From a virus, in the IMG/VR virus record IMGVR_UViG_3300007631_000007, positions 1 through 25,200 of that record: a stretch of 25,200 bases of DNA; one strand, written 5' to 3'. Of the stretch, positions 5,268 through 19,824 are shown piece after piece. Within the stretch, counting starts at the first letter, position 1, and each line of letters begins with the position of its first letter. The notes below the pieces were generated by a model. The model ran no database searches and was not told the DNA's origin. It saw only the letters and a list, made by a program, of their open reading frames with translations. The translations under genes were made by a program, and so were the position numbers.

Positions 5268-7388
5268 CTACACCGACCAAGCCATAAAGCTCCAGCTATC
5301 TCCTGCTGTTGACTGGTTGATTGATGGCTGGTCAGCCCACTCGATACTTCCCCAATCTCCACCCCACTCTGCACCTTGTGTTTCCGGCTCCTGTACTGTT
5401 GTTTGTTGTTCTCCCCACTCAAAACTATTTCTGCTTCTCTCAGTAGTATTCGGTGTGTCATTGACACCTTCTACTGATGCAATTGTTTCTCTGTATCCTT
5501 GTGCTATCTCGTCAGACGATTTGCTTACTGTTCCAAAGCTGTATTTGTTGTCATTAAACACTACATCGTCCGAAGATTTACCATTTGTGGATGCACTTCG
5601 GAAAAGGTTCTCCAGTTCTGTCCACGAGAAGAAGCTCCACTGTTCACCGTTATCTGGCTCTTCTTCCACCGGAGAGGTTGACCAGCTTCCAGCATCCCAA
5701 CTAAACTCGTTCCAGTTAGGGCCATCTGAATCCACAACATTTCTGTCTGGTTCGACCCATCTAAACTCGTAATTGTTAGATTGGTCAGATACCTCTCCAA
5801 TATCTCCAGACTTGGATACTGTATCAATAATTTCTCTATCTCCTCGTGTTATCTCATCAGATGACCTACTTACTGTTGGTATAATGTACTTGTTGTCATC
5901 CAACACAACACTGTCTGAAGATTTACCATCTGTTGCGACTGTCTGGAACAAGTCTTGTAGTTCTGTCCACGAGAAGAAGCTCCAGTTTGTATCGTTACTT
6001 AGCTCCTCATTTGTTGGGGAATTTGACCAACTTCCATCATCCCAACTAAATTCATTCCATTTTGGGCCATCTGGACTCTCAATAGGAGTATTAGACTCTA
6101 TCCATCTAAATTCATAATTATTAGATTCATCAGACACTTCTCCAGTATCATCAGATTTAGACACTGACTCAATCACATTTTCATCACCAAATGTGATTAT
6201 ATCTGTTGCACCGCTTTGAGATTGAACAAGTAGACTGTCTCCTAAGCTTGTAACATCAGATATTTTCTGCTTTGTTGGAACAATATATTTATTTTCATCA
6301 AGCAATACACCATCATTAGGACCCATACGGTCAGATGTATCTCGGAAGAGGTCCTGAAGCTCTGTCCACGAGAAGAAGTTCCACGTAACTTCTGTGTCTT
6401 CTTGTCCTTCTTCTTCCCACCGAGTCTGATAGATACTGCTCTCTACAAAATTAGAGCTTGAATCAATTACAATGTCCTCTTTTGCTTTCCCATCGTTTAG
6501 AACATAGTTAACCAAATCAGAAAGCGTAATGTCTTCGTCAAAGTCGAAGTTATCTCTGTCAGCAAATGCTTCATCATCAAGAGAAATTTCACCTTCTTCA
6601 ATCCGTGTAGAGATGGTAGCATTAACAGTATCGCCAACCTCCGCACGTTCTTCATCAACGTTGTATGATATTTTATCAAGTTCTACACCCGATGGGTCAG
6701 CTAACTCAAGTAACTCTACAACTGTGAAGACTTTGTGAGGCGGCCAATCATCAAGCTCAATAGTGTATTCCACCTCTTCAAAGTTTTCGTTGATTCTGAA
6801 AGACGCAGCACCGCTACCGAAGGCCGATGCTACTGCGAACTTTAGGTCTTCTTTCCGTCCCCGACCAGAGAACGATTGCACAAGAGACTTAAGGTAAATA
6901 CGATACTCGTTATCGTCTCGACCACGCCTCTCACCGAGGCTACCGAAGAGTGAACCAATTTCTTCAAGCTCTGTGCCGGTTGCTCTGTCAACAAATCTAC
7001 TGTCGATGGATTCTTGTCGCTTATCTGCTACTGTTTCTATCTCTTCTTCGTGGCCCTCGATGTATCTGTCTAAGATAGACTGTGAAACATATGTCACGTA
7101 AAAATCTGTGTCAGTATCAGGACTTTGGCCGCCTACACTGAAGTCGATAAACTCTCTTTCATCAAGCTCATAATCTTGGCCTGACTTAAATTCATAGGTC
7201 CCACCGTTAACCTCACCTTCAACTTTTTGAACTTCATCAATAGGAGCCTTGTCAAGCTGATACCTCTGTTGGGTAAACACAGAACCGTCCGGGCGCTCTT
7301 GCGAGACGTATCTATGCGCTTCGTCTTCCACTAAAATGTCGTCAGTTGGAAGGATTGATGGAAGAATATCTCTATAGATGCTCGTCAT
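5268..7388 (-). CDS. Baseplate protein I-like with Trp-rich C-terminal repeats
   Basis: A 706-residue protein. The N-terminal part (about 1-240), starting MTSIYRDILPSILPTDD, has the layout of phage tail protein I / gp7-like baseplate wedge subunits: a short helical start and a middle with ELEEIGSLFGSLGERRGRDD and EYRIYLKSLVQSFSGRGRKE. Residues 39-100 insert a beta module also found in the J-like protein. Residues 336-706 hold repeats starting W-x-F-F-S-W-T-E-L at 336, 469 and 584, and a truncated one at 699. It overlaps the J-like gene by ATGA. P2 gpI is much shorter (about 180 residues), so most of the length here is extra C-terminal material, probably surface-exposed or fibre-binding. Confidence 0.75.
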   Translation of the reverse strand: MTSIYRDILPSILPTDDILVEDEAHRYVSQERPDGSVFTQQRYQLDKAPIDEVQKVEGEVNGGTYEFKSGQDYELDEREFIDFSVGGQSPDTDTDFYVTYVSQSILDRYIEGHEEEIETVADKRQESIDSRFVDRATGTELEEIGSLFGSLGERRGRDDNEYRIYLKSLVQSFSGRGRKEDLKFAVASAFGSGAASFRINENFEEVEYTIELDDWPPHKVFTVVELLELADPSGVELDKISYNVDEERAEVGDTVNATISTRIEEGEISLDDEAFADRDNFDFDEDITLSDLVNYVLNDGKAKEDIVIDSSSNFVESSIYQTRWEEEGQEDTEVTWNFFSWTELQDLFRDTSDRMGPNDGVLLDENKYIVPTKQKISDVTSLGDSLLVQSQSGATDIITFGDENVIESVSKSDDTGEVSDESNNYEFRWIESNTPIESPDGPKWNEFSWDDGSWSNSPTNEELSNDTNWSFFSWTELQDLFQTVATDGKSSDSVVLDDNKYIIPTVSRSSDEITRGDREIIDTVSKSGDIGEVSDQSNNYEFRWVEPDRNVVDSDGPNWNEFSWDAGSWSTSPVEEEPDNGEQWSFFSWTELENLFRSASTNGKSSDDVVFNDNKYSFGTVSKSSDEIAQGYRETIASVEGVNDTPNTTERSRNSFEWGEQQTTVQEPETQGAEWGGDWGSIEWADQPSINQSTAGDSWSFMAWSV
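5271..6383 (-). repeat. Trp-rich tandem repeats in the I-like baseplate protein
   Basis: Units begin at residues 336, 469, 584 and 699 (spacing 133, 115, 115). Each has W(N/S)FFSWTEL(Q/E)-LF, then a V-D-NKY core, then GEVSD-SNNYEFRW and WNEFSWD-GSWS in the first two. The DNA is also similar: TCTGTCCACGAGAAGAAG occurs on the plus strand at 5617, 5962 and 6361. The last unit is only the end WSFMAWSV. Confidence 0.9.
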
Positions 7389-9271
7389 TCTGTGTTCACC
7401 CCAACAGATAGTGGGTCAATCTTGTATCGTTCCGGTGCTTCTACAACTTCTCCGTTCCTATACGTCACGTAGAACACAACACCGTCAGAAGGCTTTGAGC
7501 CTCCGACAGACCAATCTATCGAATCGGTGAGGCCATCACCGTCTGTATCTACGAAGTCGTAGTCTTGGCCCTGCTGATACGTATTGCCGTTATCATCTTC
7601 TATTGTGTCATCTTCATCGGAAGACTGGACAGTATATTCAAGCTCATAGACATTTTTTGTGTCATCAAATACTATACTTTCTTCGCTAACTAAGGTAATT
7701 TCTTGTTCTTCTCCGTACTTGACGAAGAACGGTGATGTGTCTGAAATAACTGAAGTATTTGTCCACTCTATTTCATCGTTGTAGCCGTCACCATCAGTAT
7801 CATTGAACGTATATGCAGAAGCATCGTACTCGTTTCCATCCACGTCTGTCACAACGGAACTGGATGTAGGGCTTCCGTTAGTTGTGTACTTTGCGCTCGA
7901 ATCAGTAAACGTGAAACGCTCGCTCATATAGTAATCTACAAGGAACTCTACTCCCTGTTGTGGTGAATCTCCACCGACGCTCCAATCAATTCCGTTGAGG
8001 TTTCCAGACGGCGTAACAGAGGTCTCTACGTAGTCTACACCCTTCTGATAGGTGTTATCTTCTTCATCTGTTATTTCTCTCGATAGGCCTCCTTCTCCGT
8101 AAGAGTATCGTACACGGTATATATCTTCTTGTCCGTACTGCTTAAACTCATTTAACACTGTTGCAACTGTCGTATCTAAGTAAGTTATATTATCGACAGA
8201 AACATCAGCATTAAATACTCTCTGAATAATCTTATCTTGGAGGAAGTTTTCACCTAACTGCAAAGACAGAATATATTCCTCAATCTCGTTCTTTATACGA
8301 CCAGTATTGATACTGCTGGAGCCTGAAACACGGCTGTTTACTCGTAACTGATAGATTGCAGGTCTAACAAGGTTGTGCTGTATTCCAACAGGTCGGGCTT
8401 GGTCAATCGCATCTAACACCTCTTGGTCAGAGCCACCGTCAACAACGACGTTCGCAAACGGTGGGTTTTGCTCAACAAATTCTTGAACAAGAACGCTGTC
8501 GTTATTTACACCATCTACGTTGTTTGAAATGAAACCTGCTACACCTGCCACAGTCCCACCTCCAGATGTTCGTGTAACAGCAGTCTTTATATCTTCGCGG
8601 AAATCTGCGTCGGATTGAACGTCTAATCCTCCTGACGTTGCTGTCTCGTTCGCAGCACCAAGTACACCAACTGGCGGGCTTGGGAGGAATGTTATCTGTC
8701 CTGCTCCAACGTTATACTCTGTCCCAACTTCTTCAGCAACAATGTCAACAGTTACTTCACTTTCTCCGGGGTCAGGACTGACTGAAGCATCTGAGTCTTC
8801 GTCTATCTCTCCGTCTCCGTTAGCATCAACCCTGAACGAAAGAAATTCACCGTTTGCATCAGGCGTTGTTCCGATTGTAACACCCTCAAATATCTGAACA
8901 TTGTCTCCAGATACCTGAAACGTCACTTTTCCTTTGGCCTTCTGTCCTTCAAACCTACTCTCCCCGACGAGTTTTGCCAATTCATCGAGGTGCTGGCTGT
9001 CCATATACTCGTTGATTTCATCAGGGTCATATTCGATGCCAAGAGCTTCCATATCGTCTTCTGTAAGCTCTTTACCAGCATAATCTGGCCACGCAGCTAA
9101 TAGAGCAGCAAGTGTTTGTTCTTCTTGCTCCTGAATGTCTCTTGACCAACCGCGAGTCCACACATAGTTGAAACTGGTCTCTGCAAAGTTTGTAAGCTTT
9201 GCTGTTTTTCCTGTTATTCTGTCGCGTAGACTCTCGTAAATTTCGTCTACATCTCTTGGTTGGATAGTCAT
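7385..9271 (-). CDS. Baseplate assembly protein J-like, with C-terminal beta modules
   Basis: A 628-residue protein. Residues 1-380 follow the baseplate J / Mu gp47 pattern: a helical N-terminus, FEGVTIGTTPDANGEFLSFR, then GGLDVQSDADFREDIKTAV near 214-232 and AVTRTSGGGTVAGVAGFI near 231-248, which form the conserved core, followed by ANVVVDGGSDQEVLDAIDQA. An EF-hand-like loop DANGDGEIDEDS lies at 149-160. Residues 385-604 add three beta modules with (I/E)(D/E)W and TSPFFVKY/VVFYVTY ends, two with DTDGDG. P2 J is about 300 residues, so the C-terminal half is an addition. Gene order W-J-I and ATGA overlaps on both sides support the call. Confidence 0.88.
   Translation of the reverse strand: MTIQPRDVDEIYESLRDRITGKTAKLTNFAETSFNYVWTRGWSRDIQEQEEQTLAALLAAWPDYAGKELTEDDMEALGIEYDPDEINEYMDSQHLDELAKLVGESRFEGQKAKGKVTFQVSGDNVQIFEGVTIGTTPDANGEFLSFRVDANGDGEIDEDSDASVSPDPGESEVTVDIVAEEVGTEYNVGAGQITFLPSPPVGVLGAANETATSGGLDVQSDADFREDIKTAVTRTSGGGTVAGVAGFISNNVDGVNNDSVLVQEFVEQNPPFANVVVDGGSDQEVLDAIDQARPVGIQHNLVRPAIYQLRVNSRVSGSSSINTGRIKNEIEEYILSLQLGENFLQDKIIQRVFNADVSVDNITYLDTTVATVLNEFKQYGQEDIYRVRYSYGEGGLSREITDEEDNTYQKGVDYVETSVTPSGNLNGIDWSVGGDSPQQGVEFLVDYYMSERFTFTDSSAKYTTNGSPTSSSVVTDVDGNEYDASAYTFNDTDGDGYNDEIEWTNTSVISDTSPFFVKYGEEQEITLVSEESIVFDDTKNVYELEYTVQSSDEDDTIEDDNGNTYQQGQDYDFVDTDGDGLTDSIDWSVGGSKPSDGVVFYVTYRNGEVVEAPERYKIDPLSVGVNTE
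7460..8119 (-). repeat. Three beta modules at the C-terminus of the J-like protein
   Basis: Modules lie at about residues 385-448, 451-519 and 542-604. Each runs: alternating strand, DxxGNxY(Q)-G-DY, an Asp-rich turn (DTDGDG in modules 2 and 3), (I)DWSVGG or IEWTN, and a final strand such as GVVFYVTY. A fourth copy is found near the N-terminus of the I-like protein encoded by the next gene (7089-7274). Confidence 0.8.
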
Positions 9272-9618
9272 TCAAATTCACCTACTGGAAAGATAAATGA
9301 TTTCTGTGAACCATCAGTCACCACTTGTGATGTGAGGTCAAACCCATAGTCAGTCTCTTGTATTGAAATACCAACAACGCTGTCTATTCTTGGTTCTGCG
9401 TCAAACACATCTTCTGCTGCGTTTTTCAATTTTTGCCTCACAGTCGGTGTCAATGGTTTACCGATAAATTCTTGTAGCTGCACTGAAGTAGCGAACGCTA
9501 AGTCTTTTTCAAGCTCACCAATTCCATCAGCGTTTTTGAGGTCTCCAGAAGGACCGACGATGAAGTCAAAGTTCTTGTCTAACGATGGACCACTTCCGTA
9601 TTTTTTGTCTCTTGTCAT
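9268..9618 (-). CDS. Baseplate wedge protein gp25/W-like
   Basis: A 116-residue protein matching gp25/gpW in size and position, directly ahead of J. The conserved EPR signature of this family is visible (DAEPRIDSVVGISI near residues 74-87), preceded by LAFATSVQLQEFIGKPLTP and a helix TVRQKLKNAAEDVF. The family bridges the spike/hub and the wedge (J, I) in contractile baseplates. The gene has a good GAGGAG Shine-Dalgarno, overlaps J by ATGA, and is preceded by a 37-base gap containing the CCGAAACACTTAAGTA motif. Confidence 0.82.
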   Translation of the reverse strand: MTRDKKYGSGPSLDKNFDFIVGPSGDLKNADGIGELEKDLAFATSVQLQEFIGKPLTPTVRQKLKNAAEDVFDAEPRIDSVVGISIQETDYGFDLTSQVVTDGSQKSFIFPVGEFE

Positions 9619-9633
9619 AGTAGTGTCTCCTCG

Positions 9634-9649
9634 TACTTAAGTGTTTCGG
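9634..9649 (-). promoter_or_regulatory. Conserved CCGAAACACTTAAGTA motif before the W-like gene
   Basis: The minus strand has CCGAAACACTTAAGTA 6 bases after the stop of the spike gene, differing at one position from the copy at 5248-5263. It resembles a BRE/TATA promoter. However, its TATA centre lies only about 20 bases ahead of the ATG at 9618, so a normal start site would fall at or just inside the gene. It may be a promoter with unusual spacing or another kind of conserved intergenic signal. Confidence 0.4.
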
Positions 9650-9655
9650 CTGTGT

Positions 9656-10333
9656 TTACCACGATATTGTTGTGCCGTCAGTTACTTCACTGACTGAGTT
9701 ACCATAGATAGTTATATTACCGTTGCCATCACTCACGATACCATATCCTGACCCATCACCGAGCTTAAACTCTCCTGTCGAGAGGTTTAGCTCTAAGCCC
9801 ATTTCATCAACTTCGTCTTGTCCCTTGATTTTGATGATTGTGTCTTCTCCGTCTGTATCATCAATCTCGATTGTCGCAGCGAGTCCATCGTACTTGTCGT
9901 CGGCTGCTTTCTTCGCAAGACGAAGCCACTCTGCTGGCTCTTCGGCTTCATCAAGACCTGATTGAAACTCAAAGTAAAGGTCTCCCTTCTTGTAGCGTGT
10001 CATATTCTCCGTAGCGAACGGGGCACGCTGTTTTGTGTTGTAGAGCTTCCCAAAGACGAGAGGAGCTTCTGACGACGATTTACGAAATCCGATAAGTACC
10101 AAGTCGTCTACCTCTGGAACTTCCATCATACTACCAGAGCTTCCTAACACTGGCACGTTTCGCCGTGGCTTCTCTTCTCCACGAAGAGTTACGTCTACTT
10201 CCACGTTGCCCGGAATGTCTTCATCAGGGACGTGTTCTTTAATATCAATCACTCTGCCAATTTGTGGTTGGCTAACTTGGTCGCTAATCTTATTCTCGAC
10301 GTAACTCTGTTCTGTTTTGTCAAATCGTGCCAT
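9656..10333 (-). CDS. Baseplate spike protein gpV-like
   Basis: A 225-residue protein. Residues 20-110 read as an OB-fold typical of gpV/gp5 spikes: IGRVIDIKEHVPDEDIPGNV, VDVTLRGEEKPRRNVPVLG, a SSGSMMEVPEVDDLVLIGF turn and EAPLVFGKLYN. The C-terminal 60 residues alternate short strands and Gly/Asp turns (GLELNLSTGEFKLGDGSG, GNGNITIYGNS), consistent with a short beta-helical needle. No clear HxH iron-binding tip motif is seen. It lies between the gpD-like hub and the W-like protein, as in P2-type baseplates, and begins 2 bases after the hub stop (TAACTATG). Confidence 0.85.
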   Translation of the reverse strand: MARFDKTEQSYVENKISDQVSQPQIGRVIDIKEHVPDEDIPGNVEVDVTLRGEEKPRRNVPVLGSSGSMMEVPEVDDLVLIGFRKSSSEAPLVFGKLYNTKQRAPFATENMTRYKKGDLYFEFQSGLDEAEEPAEWLRLAKKAADDKYDGLAATIEIDDTDGEDTIIKIKGQDEVDEMGLELNLSTGEFKLGDGSGYGIVSDGNGNITIYGNSVSEVTDGTTISW

Positions 10334-10335
10334 AG

Positions 10336-11382
10336 TTATACGTTATCCTCCGGTACTGCTCCTTCAAGTTTTATTTCTGTTAAGAAACCATCTGAATCGT
10401 TCATTTTGTGTTTTATCTCTCCAACAAAATAGCGTCTATTGTAGAGAAAGTCTGGAAGCTCTATCACGTCTCGCTCGTCAATTGTTGCATCACCAATGAT
10501 GACAAGCTTACCACCTTGAACCTGTCGAAGCAACTCTCTGGCAAACTTCTCTGCGACTGCTTCGGCTGTCTCGAACGTCTTTATTTGTTCGTCTTCGTGA
10601 ACATATGTTGGGTCATTTGTGTAGTATTCATTTATTTCCCACACACTTGTTTCATCATCGAAGCTTAATGCTCTTTTTGGTGTGGTTGGCATATAGTTCA
10701 CGAGCCTGTATGCGCTCTGCTGTCCGAGGTTCGAGACGGCACCGTCTGGAATGACTTTCACACCCCTATATGGTGGCTCTACAGGTCCAAACTTAGATGT
10801 AGACTTAATGTACTCTACTTCTTTTACTTCAGCATCAGGCATCCCGAACCGCAAAAGATTGTAGTTGTCTATGAACCAGTCAGCATTTGCACGTTCAGCA
10901 AGCTTATCGAGAGCTTCCGAGGCCATCATATTGCTGAAGTCCACTGTGATAAGAGCATCACGGGCAGGGCTTTGTTGCCACGTTAAGTCTGTCAAACACA
11001 GTAAATTGGCTTCTCCACAGACTTGCTGTACAAGTTCTGAAATTGGAGTTGGTTCTTCAACAGCAATTGAGAGTTCTGTGTTTTTAGCCTTGTGCAAGTC
11101 GTTCATTAACTTCACTTCGAACTTTCCAGTATCTTCTTTGGCCTTCTTTTCCTTTTCGTTGGCATCATACACGTTTCCAGTGAACACACGCCTGCCGTCA
11201 ATATCCAGAGACGCGAAATCTCCGATAGTGGGTTCTTCAGAAAAGTCAGGGTCTATGACAGTAGCGTTGACCAAATCTGTCTCGTTGTAGCGGCTGGTTG
11301 TTGCCTCTAACTCAGTGACTTCCCAACCAGTATATGACATATTAAGGTCAACTTCTACATCGTCAGCAATAACTTCTGTCAT
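10336..11382 (-). CDS. Baseplate hub protein gpD/gp27-like
   Basis: A 348-residue protein with the size and outline of late control gpD / gp27-type hubs. An N-terminal beta domain (YTGWEVTELEATTSRYNETD, DFASLDIDGRRVFTGNVYDA) is followed by a domain with PISELVQQVCGEANL and FSNMMASEALDKLAERANAD and the strand WFIDNYNLLRFG; the final part VIIGDATIDERDVIELPDFL and KHKMNDSDGFLTEIKLEGAV is typical of hub C-termini. The hub caps the tail tube and holds the spike. The Shine-Dalgarno AAGGTGAG overlaps the stop of the upstream gene. The spike gene follows directly. Confidence 0.85.
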   Translation of the reverse strand: MTEVIADDVEVDLNMSYTGWEVTELEATTSRYNETDLVNATVIDPDFSEEPTIGDFASLDIDGRRVFTGNVYDANEKEKKAKEDTGKFEVKLMNDLHKAKNTELSIAVEEPTPISELVQQVCGEANLLCLTDLTWQQSPARDALITVDFSNMMASEALDKLAERANADWFIDNYNLLRFGMPDAEVKEVEYIKSTSKFGPVEPPYRGVKVIPDGAVSNLGQQSAYRLVNYMPTTPKRALSFDDETSVWEINEYYTNDPTYVHEDEQIKTFETAEAVAEKFARELLRQVQGGKLVIIGDATIDERDVIELPDFLYNRRYFVGEIKHKMNDSDGFLTEIKLEGAVPEDNV

Positions 11383-11391
11383 TGTCTCACC

Positions 11392-11802
11392 TTAGAACCC
11401 GAAGAAACTAAAGCCTGTCGCTTCAAAGTCTGTGTCAGTAACTTCGACAAGCTCGATGGTGTATCTGTAGATGAAATCACCATCTGTGTCCTTCCCACCA
11501 CCGTCTGTGATAGGCCGAGTGCTTGTCGAAGCGACGTGTGCTTCGCCGTTCCATCGGTTACTGACAACCTCTACCGTCTCTTCATCGGTGAGAGCATCCA
11601 CATCGTTCGCCTCGCTTTCTGTACATACACCTTCGACACTTATCTCGTCAGCTTCTTCGCCAATCTTCTGACGGACAGTTGTGTCACCGATGACTTTGTG
11701 AGACGCATATCGCGCGGATGTGTCCACACTTACACTTGGTTGTTCGTACTTGAACGCCACGTTTCCGACGCTCGCATCAGGTCGTTCGTCTTCGTATACC
11801 AT
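11392..11802 (-). CDS. gpU-like tail/baseplate protein (tube initiator region)
   Basis: A 136-residue protein. The segment VRQKIGEEADEISVEGVCTE, then NDVDALTDEETVEVVSNRWNG, a GGGKDTDGD loop and the closing strand RYTIELVEV follow the pattern of P2 gpU-like proteins (a strand with G, a helix, then strands reporting an offset 'G-x-W'). Such proteins sit at the tube-baseplate junction between the tape measure and the hub, which is this gene's position. A strong GGAGGT Shine-Dalgarno lies within the end of the tape measure gene. The assignment rests on pattern and gene order. Confidence 0.6.
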   Translation of the reverse strand: MVYEDERPDASVGNVAFKYEQPSVSVDTSARYASHKVIGDTTVRQKIGEEADEISVEGVCTESEANDVDALTDEETVEVVSNRWNGEAHVASTSTRPITDGGGKDTDGDFIYRYTIELVEVTDTDFEATGFSFFGF

Positions 11803-11804
11803 TA

Positions 11805-14800
11805 TTAATTACCTCCATCTCTGAACCGCTTCTCACGGTTCGCTTCGTTAATAGCATCTTGGACAAGCCCCTTGACACGAGCCTTCTCCTCGGGGTTCAT
11901 ATTGAAGTCCCCAAAGTTGTATTCGTTGTTTTCGTAGTTGTTTGTTTCGTGATTTGGCGCTGGTGCTTGGTCGTCTTGTGCCTCTTGGTTGTCTTCTTCG
12001 GTCATACTGGCTGCGTTTTCTCTTGCTTCTTCAGCAGAAGCATCAGCAGAAGCAAGCCTTCCAGAAGCACCACCACTACCACCCATCTCAAACTCATCAA
12101 CATTGTCAATTTCAAATCTATCAGGTAGAGCCTTATTTGCGTTGTCAATTATTGAGTTAAGTGCATCAATGACTGTGTTAGCCATCCCTTCAATCATTCT
12201 TTCTACGAAAGCCACAGAACCAGCAATAATTTCTTTCAGACCGTCGAAGGCATCCTTAATTAGTTCAACACCTTGACCTATCTTTGATAGTGTGCTTTGG
12301 ACTATCGACAAGCTCATAAAGGCGTCTATTAGCGCATCAATTGCATCAACAACAAATAATATAATTGAGACAAGAGCGTTGAGAGGAATAAACACAGCAG
12401 CGTAGATGATGTCAGCAATGACATTAAACGGACCTTGGAACAGTCCAATGACGAATCCAATAGCATCACCGAGCGCACTGAACGCTTTGCCAATAATATC
12501 GAATACTCCACCCATCGCGCTTCCTTCTTCATTAGCAAAGCCTAATCCTTGTGCGAGTCTATCAAAGGCATCCTTGACAGCGAACACAGGAGCGAGAATT
12601 GCTTCGAGAATATCTACAAATAGGTTCCACGTCGGGACACCTATTGCCAACAAGAAGTTGAAGATAGACTCTAATACTCCCTTCAGGAAGTCAATTGTTC
12701 CTCCGACAGCGTTCGATACACCACCAATGTTGGACAAGGCTCCAGCAAGGATTGCTGAAACAGCAATCAGTGCTACGAACGCCTTGATTATCAGACCGAT
12801 ACCGATGGCGTCAAGAGCAAAGCTTAGTGCAGCGACCGCTCCTGTGGCTACCCCGGCGGAGGCTGATACTCCCAAGAACGTGAGAGCTACAGCAGCCATC
12901 TGTGAGATAACGGGGATTCCCATTGCTGAAACAGACGCAAGGGATGTAGCAAGGGAACTGTTCATTAGCGCGCTGAACAGGGCAGCACTCCCTTGTGAAA
13001 AGAGTGTTGCGGTAAGCGTTGCAAGACCAGCGATAGCTTTAAACGGTGCCAGAGCCAATTTCTTCATTGAAGTAAGAAGACTCTTTGTACCGAGATTTGC
13101 TGGAATAAGTCCGCCTGCGTAATCACGTACAGCGTTAGTAGCGCCACTGAAGCTGCTTGATAGTCTATCAAATGTGCCGCTTGCGAGAGATGTAATTCTT
13201 CCCTTAACTCGGTTAGACACATCTCCAACAAGCTGCATTGCGTCGTCGTAGTTTTCAATATCAGCGATAGCAGAAGCAAAGTTGTCGGCGGATGAGCGCA
13301 CTGCGCCACCTGCACTACGTAGTGGACTTACAACAGTACCAAGTGCGCTCTTTATATCTTCTACACTCGGAATAAATCCTGTAAGTGTCCGTTTAAACCG
13401 GCTAAATACTGACTCGTTTTCTGATGCAGCATCAGCGAGAACCGGAAGGCTTCTGGAAGCCCCATCAGCATTTTCGGCTAACACAGGTAAGTTGTCTGCC
13501 GTTTCTTTGATGCTCTCAGAAGCAGCAGGCAACGCGCCAGCAACTTCATCAGAGCCAGATGCCAGTGCAGGTAGCTTATCACTCACTTCATTGACGCTTG
13601 GGATAAGGTCTGTAAGTCCCCCGAGGAATCCTCTCGCTCTTGAAGCTGCATCTCCGAAACGTGAGCGTAATCTACTGAGAGCTTCTCTCGCCCCGGAAGC
13701 TGATGGAGCAAGAGAGAAGAGTCTGTTTTTGAGACGTGTGAAGAATCCAAGGTCTGAATCTGTCGTATCGTCTATGGCAGATGATAGTACCGGAAGATTG
13801 CTTGCTGCATCTTCAGCAGCCTCGGATGCAGGCGGTAATGCTCCAGCAATCTCATCTGAACCTGATGCGAGAGCAGGCATCATATTCTCAAAGGCAGTTG
13901 CACCCGGAAGAGCGCCGCTAATCCGAGTACCGAAGCCTTGAACAGCATCAGTAGCTTGGTTGAAGGATGTTGGGATTTTGTCTAACGCACCATCAACGAG
14001 CGATGCAAGCTCCGGGCTGATGATTTGTAGACCAGACTTAATGTTCCCAATAGCTCTGTCGAAGCTTCCGAGTCCGGGGACTGCGCTCACAAACGCTTCA
14101 CCGACACCCGTTACTACGCTTACGACACCGATACCACGCGCAGCGAGAGACTGTAGGCCGGTGGACACAGCGGAGAGACCTCTTGAAGCGAACTGCCGTG
14201 CCTTACCTGTGACAGAACCGAACGCCTCTGACACCGTACTCAGCCGGTCTGAGAAGGCCGAGGTGATGCGGTTCTTTGTGTTAACTGCGGTTTCGCCAAT
14301 CTCGTTTAGCCGCTCACGCGCTTGTTGTGTGCGTGTTGTGACATTAACTTCCTTTTCTGTTCGTGAGCTAAAGTCACCTTCCAAGAGTTCTTCTTGAGCC
14401 TCTTTGACCTCTTTGAAAGCCTCTGCTGAACCTCCTTGGTCGGGGTGGACTTCTGTTACAATGTCACGGTATGCTTGGTTGATTTGGTCCTTTGTAGCAT
14501 CAGCATCGTCAATGTTGAGCTTTTCCAGCGCACCCATCCTAACTTCTGGTGCTGGAATAGTAGTCTGTTGAACTGTTTCTACTCTGTTAAGGTCAGCAAA
14601 CTTCTGCGAAACTGCTTCTGTTACTCCACCGATACCTTCAGAGACAGCACCGCCAATATTTGTATTAGCTACTTTCTGCCTCAAGTCTCCGACGAAAGAA
14701 GTTATAAGGCTGAGAATACTGTCTGTTCGGTCGGCTACTCGTTGTCTTACAGAATCAAATGCAGACCCAATAGGACCTGTAATTACACTTGCTTTGTTTC

Positions 14801-17224: not shown

Positions 17225-17931
17225 TTATAGTTGGTTCTTCATCTGCTGTTTGTTGCGTTCGGCCTCAGCTTTCTCTTGTTTCATACGCTCCCGTTCATTT
17301 TCAGCGTGGAACAGGAATTTTAGTTGCCCATCTGTTAGCTCGTCTGCGAACAGTTCCCGCTTTCTTGTCGGGTGCGGGCAATCGTTATCTGGTGGACCGG
17401 GAGTATCATAGCAGTTACATTGATACTCTTCTGTTGAAAACCCGTGCCCCTTCTCTATCGCAGAGAGAAGTTGCTGTCCTAATCCTGTACGTGAAAAGCT
17501 TGGACATCACCTGCTTCTTCAAGCGAGTATGTCATAATCTCGCTGCCAAGCTCGAACAGCATCTCGAAACCGAACTCGTCAATAATCTTTTGCATCTGGA
17601 CACCCGAGAACTCCTCGTGAGCCAGAGACTCTTGACAGAGGTACTCGAACGCATCAACCATTTCAGGATTCACGTTTGCGCCGCCGCCTTCCGCTTCTCG
17701 TGCCATTTCCTCGGCTTCCTCAGCCGATACATCCTCTTCATTATCCACGGCCTCGAAAAGCTCATCAGGCATCGAGTTAATCGCAAATGCGAGGTCTTGC
17801 TTCTCTACAGTGTGCATTTCGAACGCCGGAAGCTGTCGTCCATCCGCGCGTTCAAATGTCACGTTTTTTGATGCGCCGCTGCCCTTAATCGTCCGCTGAT
17901 ACCATTCTTGTGCGTCAATTTCTTCAGCCAT
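17225..17931 (-). CDS. Tail assembly chaperone, -1 frameshift fusion (G-T type)
   Basis: After the 150-codon chaperone frame, the -1 frame stays open to 17225 and encodes a protein-like extension with no suitable start codon near its beginning. Slippage at GCT-TTT-CAC (F146) would join it, giving about 235 residues. The extension begins SRTGLGQQLLSAIEKGHGFS, carries a Cys/His cluster (QCNCYD ... DCPHP), then FADELTDGQLKFLFHAENER and a basic, helical end (KQEKAEAERNKQQMKNQL). Tail phages commonly make such a minor long form by -1 frameshift between the tube and tape measure genes, where it binds the tape measure protein during assembly. The frame, gene order and absence of a start support this. 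Confidence 0.75.
17479..17931 (-). CDS. Tail assembly chaperone (short form, gpG-like)
   Basis: A 150-residue acidic protein (MAEEIDAQEWYQRTIKGSG...) between the tube and tape measure genes, the usual place for the tail chaperone. It has an N-terminal beta part (KNVTFERADGRQLPAFEMHT), then mainly helix with DLAFAINSMPDELFEAVDNE and EFGFEMLFELGSEIMTYSLE. It ends at a TAG after HVQD, four codons beyond the candidate slippery TTTT. It lacks a strong Shine-Dalgarno, unlike the sheath and tube genes, consistent with lower expression. A GC-rich structured element lies upstream at 17981-18042. Confidence 0.8.
   Translation of the reverse strand: MAEEIDAQEWYQRTIKGSGASKNVTFERADGRQLPAFEMHTVEKQDLAFAINSMPDELFEAVDNEEDVSAEEAEEMAREAEGGGANVNPEMVDAFEYLCQESLAHEEFSGVQMQKIIDEFGFEMLFELGSEIMTYSLEEAGDVQAFHVQD
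17491..17499 (-). promoter_or_regulatory. Candidate -1 ribosomal frameshift site
   Basis: The minus strand reads GCT-TTT-CAC in the chaperone frame. In the -1 frame the Phe tRNA can re-pair with TTT, so a P-site slip is possible, after which reading continues TCA-CGT-ACA into the open extension frame. It is not a canonical X-XXY-YYZ heptamer, so another nearby slip point cannot be excluded. Confidence 0.5.
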
Positions 17932-18051: not shown

Positions 18052-18477
18052 TTACGAAATCAGCATCTCTTCTGCAACGAAGTCATAGCTCTCGCTCGTT
18101 CGGTCGTCCGAAGGAATGTCCTTCGAACGTGACTCGCAGATAACACCAGTGAACGTTACTGTTCGCTCGTGTTCGTTAACTGTAATTTCAATGTCCTTCG
18201 GAGCCTTCGGAAGCCCTTCATCCGTTCGGAGGGCTTCTTGGAGCGCAACGTTGGAACCAGTATGCTCGAACGAGCCGGAATACGTCATTCCAGTCGTTAC
18301 AATTGACATACCCATTCCAGTCCCGAACTGTGTCTCGGACGTTTCTGCGTCAACGGAGTAGCTGATATTCGTAAGCGGTACATCGTCCTGACCAGCAATT
18401 GTGATTACTGCGTCGTGGCCGATTTCCTTCTGTGGGTCGTCACGAAGGTTTCCGTCTACCGTTGGTGTCTTAGCCAT
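18052..18477 (-). CDS. Tail tube protein
   Basis: A 141-residue protein directly after the sheath gene, with the size and beta-rich pattern of contractile-tail tube proteins (XkdM/P2 FII type). It begins TVDGNLRDDPQKEIGHDAVI, has LTNISYSVDAETSETQFGTG in the middle and SGSFEHTGSNVALQEAL, then paired strands DIEITVNEHERTVTFTGVIC and SESYDFVAEEMLIS. It polymerises into hexameric rings around the tape measure protein, inside the sheath. A strong Shine-Dalgarno GAGGTGAT precedes the ATG, consistent with a highly expressed structural protein. Confidence 0.85.
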   Translation of the reverse strand: MAKTPTVDGNLRDDPQKEIGHDAVITIAGQDDVPLTNISYSVDAETSETQFGTGMGMSIVTTGMTYSGSFEHTGSNVALQEALRTDEGLPKAPKDIEITVNEHERTVTFTGVICESRSKDIPSDDRTSESYDFVAEEMLIS

Positions 18478-18489
18478 AATGTATCACCT

Positions 18490-19824
18490 CTATGTGTTAA
18501 TCGTGACAGTTTGGTCAATCCGCTTCACGATTCCGAGCGGTGTAACTCCAACGTCGATGTTCACTTGGTCAGTGTTTGCCGGGTCCTCGTAAACATTGAC
18601 GGTGAGGTTCTGTTCTCCATCCTCGTTCGGCTTGAGAAGCCGGTCACTGACCAGCCCACGAAGCTGAACGAAGAGTGTCGTTTGTGCCTGATTCCGTGTC
18701 CGCTCGTCGTTGATACGGCCAATGATGGCCTCACCAACGAGCTTGGAGAGCAGTACAACACGGTCTACAATCCGACGCCGCCAGAAGTCCCGCTCCCAGT
18801 CCGATTCCTCGGACGTGGAGAGGTTGTCCTTGATTCGCACCGTGCCAGCCTGCCGAATAGGAATCACGTATGCGTCACGGAACTTCTGTGCGTCAGACCG
18901 AGACACGTCGTATGCAACGTCTGTGTAGCCCGATACTGCGTCGTTGTACACAGGCTCGTTGATTGCGTGTCCAGCGAACACACCAGCGACACCGGGGATG
19001 ATTGTGCGGTTGTAATTTTCTCCGTTTCGAGACGGAGCAATCACGAACAGCGCATCATCAGCGAGTGCGTCACTGTAGTCTCCAGCGTCGTAGCCGGGTG
19101 CGAGTGGGTCGTTAGTCGGAACAGTGTCGTCAACGTTCGGTTGTGCGCCGACAAGACCTTTCGCCATCTTGTACTCACCACGTAGTGTGGTGATGTGTCC
19201 GCTCAGTGTAGCTGCAACTGACTCTGCATCAGTGAGCGGTGCAAGAACACCAGTGTCACCCTCTGCGAGAGCATCGTTAGCAGCAGCGATAAGCGTGTTA
19301 TCCCACTCCTGATAGCTGTAGGAAACCGAAACGTCAGTCACATCATCGTTCCCGACAATAAATTCACCCTCGTAAGGGTTGATGTACGCTACACCACCAT
19401 CTGATGGCTTATCAGGAGCGTCACCAGCATACCAGAACTCTACCTCTGCATCAGTACCATCAATGGTAACTGTCACCTCTTCCTCGTTGTGGAGAATTGG
19501 TGTGTTTGATAGTGTTCCGCTTGCGTTCGTATAGTCTTCTGTAGCCTGTACCTTCGGGACGGGAACACCGTAGAGGTAATTGATGTTAGCACCGTTAGCC
19601 AGTGCTTCCTTCATCGCGTCTGCCAACTCAGAGCCAGCACCGAACTTCTTATCTGCTTCGGTAGTGGCACCAACTTGAGTTGGATTACCTTCTACGGCGG
19701 TTCCGTTAGATGTGTCAGCGTTGCCGTAGAGAATCAGTGTCTCTTCAGCGCCAACCTGAACACCGGAAATTCCGCCCCCTTGCGTCTGAATCCGTACTCC
19801 GGGGAATCCTCCAAATGTTGTCAT
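18490..19824 (-). CDS. Tail sheath protein
   Basis: A 444-residue sheath subunit. The N-terminus (FGGFPGVRIQTQGGGISGVQ, EETLILYGNA) and especially the C-terminal domain (DRVVLLSKLVGEAIIGRIND, RNQAQTTLFVQLRGLVSDRL, LTVNVYEDPANTDQVNIDVG, TPLGIVKRIDQTVTINT) match the pattern of contractile sheath proteins, in which the C-terminal strands join neighbouring subunits. Its presence defines the virus as contractile-tailed. The Shine-Dalgarno AAGGTGAT lies 6 bases from the ATG. The 62-base gap upstream contains a 15-bp element also found, inverted, at 21426-21440. Confidence 0.95.
   Translation of the reverse strand: MTTFGGFPGVRIQTQGGGISGVQVGAEETLILYGNADTSNGTAVEGNPTQVGATTEADKKFGAGSELADAMKEALANGANINYLYGVPVPKVQATEDYTNASGTLSNTPILHNEEEVTVTIDGTDAEVEFWYAGDAPDKPSDGGVAYINPYEGEFIVGNDDVTDVSVSYSYQEWDNTLIAAANDALAEGDTGVLAPLTDAESVAATLSGHITTLRGEYKMAKGLVGAQPNVDDTVPTNDPLAPGYDAGDYSDALADDALFVIAPSRNGENYNRTIIPGVAGVFAGHAINEPVYNDAVSGYTDVAYDVSRSDAQKFRDAYVIPIRQAGTVRIKDNLSTSEESDWERDFWRRRIVDRVVLLSKLVGEAIIGRINDERTRNQAQTTLFVQLRGLVSDRLLKPNEDGEQNLTVNVYEDPANTDQVNIDVGVTPLGIVKRIDQTVTINT

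Follow-up and report, generated by a model that had tools for sequence, protein, structure and literature searches.

A J-domain within the tape measure protein of a contractile-tailed virus related to Halogranum tailed virus 1

Introduction

What might explain the presence of a J-domain in the middle of a tape measure protein (TMP)? TMPs, which are long and partly hydrophobic, depend on chaperones, and proteins of the G/GT type attend them before the tail tube is assembled; to our knowledge, there are few phages for which it is clear how the TMP stays assembly-competent. J-domains dock on ATP-bound Hsp70 through their HPD motif and stimulate ATP hydrolysis. A co-chaperone domain of this kind, placed in cis, would link the host DnaK machine either to the building of the tail or to the entry of the genome. 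The question is raised by a 25.2-kb virus record, the whole of which is referred to here as the window, and for which a preliminary description had claimed a complete J-domain core inside a TMP encoded just downstream of a G/GT chaperone pair.

Results

The tape measure protein and its gene neighborhood

The 1800-residue protein in question matches PHROG tape measure families over long stretches (PHROG 1272, E 2.4e-25; PHROG 58, E 2.8e-17). Its gene is the longest of the tail genes, which follow one another in the order sheath, tube, an overlapping G/GT-like pair, TMP, and baseplate (Table 1). Profile match and gene order together identify the protein as a TMP, and a G/GT-like overlapping pair does precede it, so that the preliminary description was right in both assignments. 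The virus is contractile-tailed, and among named viruses Halogranum tailed virus 1 (HGTV-1) stands closest to it: the sheath proteins are approximately 49% identical, and the HGTV-1 homologue of the TMP, which is annotated as tape measure, shows 26% identity across 17% of the query. Relatives of the virus point to haloarchaea as its probable hosts. The TMP is net acidic, with several hydrophobic segments, and possesses an internal repeat, LPALASGSDE(I/V)AGALP...NLPVL, at residues 1111-1142 and 1212-1244, in the variable middle of the TMP.

The G/GT-like pair (window 17225-17931, minus strand) has counterparts in the related virus contigs L009 (11911-12623) and L158 (11897-12630). Just before the stop of the G frame there is a conserved CAA-NNT-TTT-C, and a -1 frame continues; the sequence suggests a -1 slippage on TTT without the classical heptamer. 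The conserved CxC...CxHP stretch of the T-like extension may bind zinc. In another relative, L161 (12334-12741), the frame that follows G reads HTCERCDGDGEE, which resembles one DnaJ zinc-finger repeat (CxxCxGxG); this frame is likely to be a tail-assembly chaperone.

Table 1. Tail genes of the window and features of the TMP J-domain
Feature	Positions	Strand	Evidence and remarks
Baseplate/tail-tip genes after the TMP gene: GpU-like, GpP-like, gpV-like, baseplate wedge	7385..11802	-	Profile matches; the GpU-like, GpP-like and gpV-like assignments are below the Pfam curated cut-offs
TMP gene, 1800 aa	11805..17207	-	PHROG tape measure families, best E 2.4e-25
Linker after the J-domain, residues 947-958	14334..14369	-	Partly conserved, then VTTRT; strand in one model only
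J-domain core, residues 891-946	14370..14537	-	Pfam DnaJ, PDB sequence matches, models, fold searches
Helix III (predicted), residues 928-943, AEAFKEVKEAQEELLE	14379..14426	-	Both AlphaFold models
HPD motif, residues 921-923, CAC CCC GAC	14439..14447	-	Also kept in L009
Helix II (predicted), residues 906-920	14448..14492	-	Both AlphaFold models
Helix I (predicted), residues 886-896	14520..14552	-	Both AlphaFold models
Linker before the J-domain, residues 875-884	14556..14585	-	Conserved RVET..TTI; strand in one model only
T-like extension frame (-1)	17225..17506	-	Conserved CxC...CxHP stretch; overlaps the G frame; kept in L009 and L158
G-like tail assembly chaperone candidate, 150 aa	17479..17931	-	Between tube and TMP; kept in L009 and L158
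Tail tube protein	18052..18477	-	PHROG 12452, E 6e-6
Tail sheath protein	18490..19824	-	PHROG 10244, E 1.5e-98

A class C J-domain in the middle of the TMP

The middle of the TMP holds a genuine J-domain. With coordinates re-derived from the translation, ALEKLNIDDADATKDQINQAYRDIVTEVHPDQGGSAEAFKEVKEAQEELLEG comprises residues 893-944 (nucleotides 14376-14531, minus strand) and includes the single HPD of the 1800-residue protein. The Pfam DnaJ profile PF00226, whose curated cut-off is 27.8 bits, matches the whole TMP at 30.3 bits (E 4.6e-7) and the J-domain segment alone at 35.6 bits, and it is the sole Pfam domain detected across the TMP. An independent J-domain HMM, built from 24 other J-domains with the TMP sequences left out, gives the TMP 66 bits; the highest score among 1000 shuffled versions of it is 4.7 bits. 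Tim14 is the best match in a phmmer search of PDB sequences (6e-4), and nearly all of the named proteins among the 34 matches up to E 1 are J-domains. The location given in the preliminary description, including the HPD at residues 921-923, is therefore correct, and the DnaJ profile search that it proposed gave a match above the curated cut-off. Its claim of a J-domain at residues 893-944 holds, the domain being slightly longer and extending over residues ~886-946, with helix I starting at ~886 and the conserved block reaching 946. The PF00226 match spans profile positions 10-53 of 63, and helix IV, which canonical J-domains have at their C-terminal end, is absent. Membership of the J-domain family does not depend on helix IV, and several haloarchaeal J-domain proteins likewise lack it. 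There is no cysteine anywhere in the TMP, and reading of the sequence reveals no G/F stretch after the J-domain; having neither a G/F region nor CxxCxGxG zinc motifs, the TMP is a class C J-domain protein. No step in GC content marks the J-domain.

Predicted fold

The first of two AlphaFold models (128 residues) was made with an alignment of 26 sequences, and because 24 of these were other J-domains, a second model (218 residues) was built from an alignment of two TMPs alone, without any J-domain protein. Both models predict an antiparallel hairpin of helices II and III with helix I packed on it and the HPD between helices II and III, which agrees with the helix II/III hairpin expected of the claimed domain. 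Block-mean pLDDT is 80-91 for this region in model 1; in model 2 the same three helices have a pLDDT of ~80 and nearly everything else, flanks included, is below 50, making the J-domain the only confident part of the 218-residue stretch. The nearest solved folds are J-domains. With VIA-align, model 1 superposes on Tim14 with Z 8.9 (2.0 A, 58 residues), on Sis1 with Z 8.3, and on the DnaK-bound J-domain 5nro_B (5NRO) with Z 8.0 (1.7 A, 56 residues). The best Foldseek E-value of model 1 is 0.0097, modest values being expected for so small a domain, and the Foldseek list for model 2 is led by J-domains, with Tim14 second in the list (1.3 A over 50 columns). A beta-strand stalk around the J-domain was seen in model 1 but not in model 2, and is not claimed.

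Conservation in a divergent relative

The virus contig L009 (IMG/VR 3300003629_000011) encodes a TMP of 1605 residues that is 49% identical to the window TMP, and a J-domain that is 63% identical, with an intact HPD, is found at the same place in it. This TMP scores exactly at the PF00226 cut-off of 27.8. Besides the HPD, it keeps Y913, R914, F931 and K932, and it shares the linkers NRVET..TTIPAPE before and VTTRT after the J-domain. Between the two TMPs, the ~210 residues that precede the J-domain are 28% identical, and the J-domain ranks within the most conserved 10% of the protein. The J-domain has a pN of 0.24 versus 0.36 overall; pS is saturated (0.69, 0.73), and the support for constraint therefore comes from amino-acid conservation and is not a proper dN/dS test.

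Distribution in viruses and haloarchaea

More distant relatives, obtained by sheath-based searches, lack the domain. With the HMM and Pfam, no J-domain was detected in the TMPs of L157/L158 (1320 aa), L162 (1799 aa) and HGTV-1 (983-984 aa), in the L161 TMP, which is incomplete at >850 aa, or in five provirus TMPs from a sample of 391 haloarchaeal genomes. The nearest relative, L009, thus keeps the HPD, as the preliminary description required of close homologues, and the whole domain is missing from more distant halovirus TMPs; a J-domain is no general feature of TMPs. The L158 TMP aligns to the window TMP at residues 214-621 and 1480-1799, and the 860 residues between 621 and 1480 in the window TMP, J-domain included, correspond to only ~210 residues in L158. 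The J-domain accordingly lies in the variable middle part and was either gained in, or kept by, one lineage.

J-domains with an HPD[QM]GGS loop occur at 27 loci in viral contigs, and only that of L009 belongs to a TMP, the others being in much shorter frames. Among annotated phages, the credible matches listed were all stand-alone or unnamed proteins. Full-length TMP searches of viral contigs with single-peptide queries gave no match, nor did a first genome scan with the TMP, and a two-row TMP alignment retrieved from viral contigs only L012, which is the same contig as L009, and L013. L013 was rejected as a J-domain TMP: it is a free 209-aa reading frame with HED in place of HPD. Ruegeria phage TMPs with a weak J-domain match (E 4) possess no HPD there and no DnaJ profile match, and the similarity was attributed to chance. 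Two long haloarchaeal frames, G245 and G371, align over the J-domain only, and their sequences do not read as TMP-like. In the open-access full-text literature we found no published case of a J-domain in a TMP; PMC12619734 mentions tape measure protein and J-domain separately. The J-domain within the TMP is lineage-specific, and with the TMP it makes a new domain combination out of two known kinds.

By pairwise scores, the J-domains closest to that of the TMP are haloarchaeal. A J-domain tree (54 columns) did not resolve the origin of the TMP domain, which was not nested among the haloarchaeal J-ferredoxins and small J-proteins, and for this reason no host protein is claimed as its source despite the pairwise scores.

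Putative DnaK partner and helix II charge

Hsp70/DnaK is present in all four haloarchaeal genomes tested and in the control Haloferax volcanii; none was found in five viral records, which are possibly fragments. Three of those haloarchaea have 4 to 8 J-domain matches per genome, several with the same short loop. Helix II, in which R914 is kept, has a net charge of -2 in the window TMP and -1 in L009; in E. coli DnaJ this charge is positive. The values in haloarchaeal J-domains range from -2 to +3, and an acidic helix II is found in some of them, one canonical DnaJ among them.

Discussion

Why, then, does this TMP contain a J-domain? In the most likely reading, to which we give about an even chance, the domain brings host DnaK to the TMP while the tail is being assembled. 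We infer DnaK binding, ATPase stimulation and the stage of action as follows. The new TMP, a long chain with several hydrophobic segments, would wait in the cytoplasm, and its J-domain would dock on ATP-bound host DnaK by the HPD face; docking would trigger ATP hydrolysis and clamp DnaK onto hydrophobic stretches close by in that chain. The clamped DnaK would keep the TMP soluble until polymerization of the tube displaces the chaperones, and all of this would take place alongside the G/GT-like pair encoded just upstream. A TMP cannot be built into a tail without exposure to the cytoplasm, and the assembly stage is favored over a stage after entry because during assembly the TMP is certainly in that compartment. 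Counting against DnaK recruitment in assembly, related viruses build tails without a J-domain, the virus already has a G/GT-like pair, and the domain lacks helix IV and has an acidic helix II.

The same domain could in principle act at the other end of the infection cycle. After ejection, the TMP would cross the envelope and the J-domain would refold in the cytoplasm and recruit the DnaK of the new host, a fairly unlikely course of events in our estimation; DnaK would then pull or hold the TMP, and DNA with it, inward, as in mitochondrial import by Tim14/Pam18. The particle of the archaeal virus HFTV1 loses its TMP on DNA ejection (PMC12494034), a TurboID-ManZ fusion, with the TurboID linked to the inner membrane, labels the lambda TMP during injection (PMC13190303), and Tim14 is the best match to the TMP domain in both sequence and fold. 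However, the Tim14 match reflects a general J-domain likeness with a small lead over other J-domains, the domain would have to thread through, cross a membrane and refold, and the scenario presupposes that this TMP enters the cytoplasm. That it is the Hsp70-recruiting module of an ejected TMP, with host DnaK powering or ratcheting the entry of protein and DNA in a viral analogue of Tim14-Hsp70, we consider distinctly unlikely.

The acidic helix II, the missing helix IV and the relatives that manage without the domain would also suit an acquired J-domain that has no Hsp70 partner and serves only as a folded spacer or a module for docking, such as one that signals to the G/GT chaperones. The HPD and the FK.V..A of helix III have, however, been kept at 63% identity while the neighboring sequence diverged, and a domain used purely as a spacer would have no need of the HPD; we hold such a relic to be unlikely. 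Manipulation of the host is an improbable purpose: TMP from the virion, or newly made TMP, would occupy host DnaK or displace J-proteins, for instance damping a DnaJ-dependent sensing of phages. DnaJ-dependent phage sensing is reported in E. coli (bNACHT25, as cited in PMC12619734, which also describes a phage RB43 J-protein acting on host DnaK), but the bNACHT25-related and RB43 cases are separate proteins, we know of no comparable defense in this system, and a virion holds few TMP copies, a hexamer in HFTV1 (PMC12494034). The source is a metagenome-derived virus record, and a chimeric assembly or a chance similarity might be suspected; we judge either explanation extremely improbable, since the frame is open throughout, the shuffle control scores far lower, and the recurrence of the domain at this position in the independent, 49%-identical TMP of L009 already refutes an artefact.

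The J-domain-bearing TMP can be set beside several known systems. The HGTV-1 TMP (Hagravirus) has homologous N-terminal and C-terminal parts (24-28% identity), but is shorter, 983-984 aa against 1800, and without a J-domain. The TMP of HFTV1 is hexameric (PMC12494034). A folded accessory domain inside a TMP is likewise found in mycobacteriophage TM4 (a peptidoglycan hydrolase motif) and S. aureus phage phiIPLA35 (a muramidase), both as cited in PMC12494034, and in Ruegeria phage DSS3-P1; those are cell-wall enzymes for entry, whereas the window TMP domain is of the co-chaperone type. In the DSS3-P1 TMP (L014 3208-8442), a phage lysozyme domain (PF00959) occurs together with a Hint/intein-like one (PF05203). 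The J-domain is a non-enzymatic addition, in archaeal viruses, to the short list of TMP accessory domains.

Phage J-proteins are known from the literature as free proteins, in RB43 and in jumbo phages. The RB43 J-protein, HCTV-2 gp5 and the DnaJ-like proteins of moraphages are virus-encoded J-domain proteins expected to act on host DnaK, and they too are free and separate, unlike the J-domain within a tail structural protein described here. In HCTV-2 and a relative (L002 7437-8135; L005 1342-2052) the J-domain is C-terminal in a free protein, and halovirus J-domains therefore also occur as separate proteins. The haloarchaeal J-ferredoxins and small J-proteins are closest by pairwise score, and the J-ferredoxin group has the same short HPDQGGSA loop and is also without helix IV; unlike in the TMP, the J-domain is at the end of the protein, joined to a ferredoxin or an uncharacterized part. 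Haloarchaeal fusions of a J-domain with a 2Fe-2S ferredoxin (PF00226 and PF00111) are present in L015 (2965-3642) and L022 (2956-3651); according to a 2012 survey, DnaJ-Fer was confined to green plants and Thaumarchaeota (PMC3564930). Polyomavirus T antigens, which are present in the fold-match lists, also have a J-domain fused to a viral multidomain protein, although it is N-terminal and in a regulatory protein of an unrelated virus. Tim14/Pam18, the best match, is a J-domain tied to a translocating machine, but it is a mitochondrial membrane protein, and its likeness to the TMP domain is that of J-domains in general.
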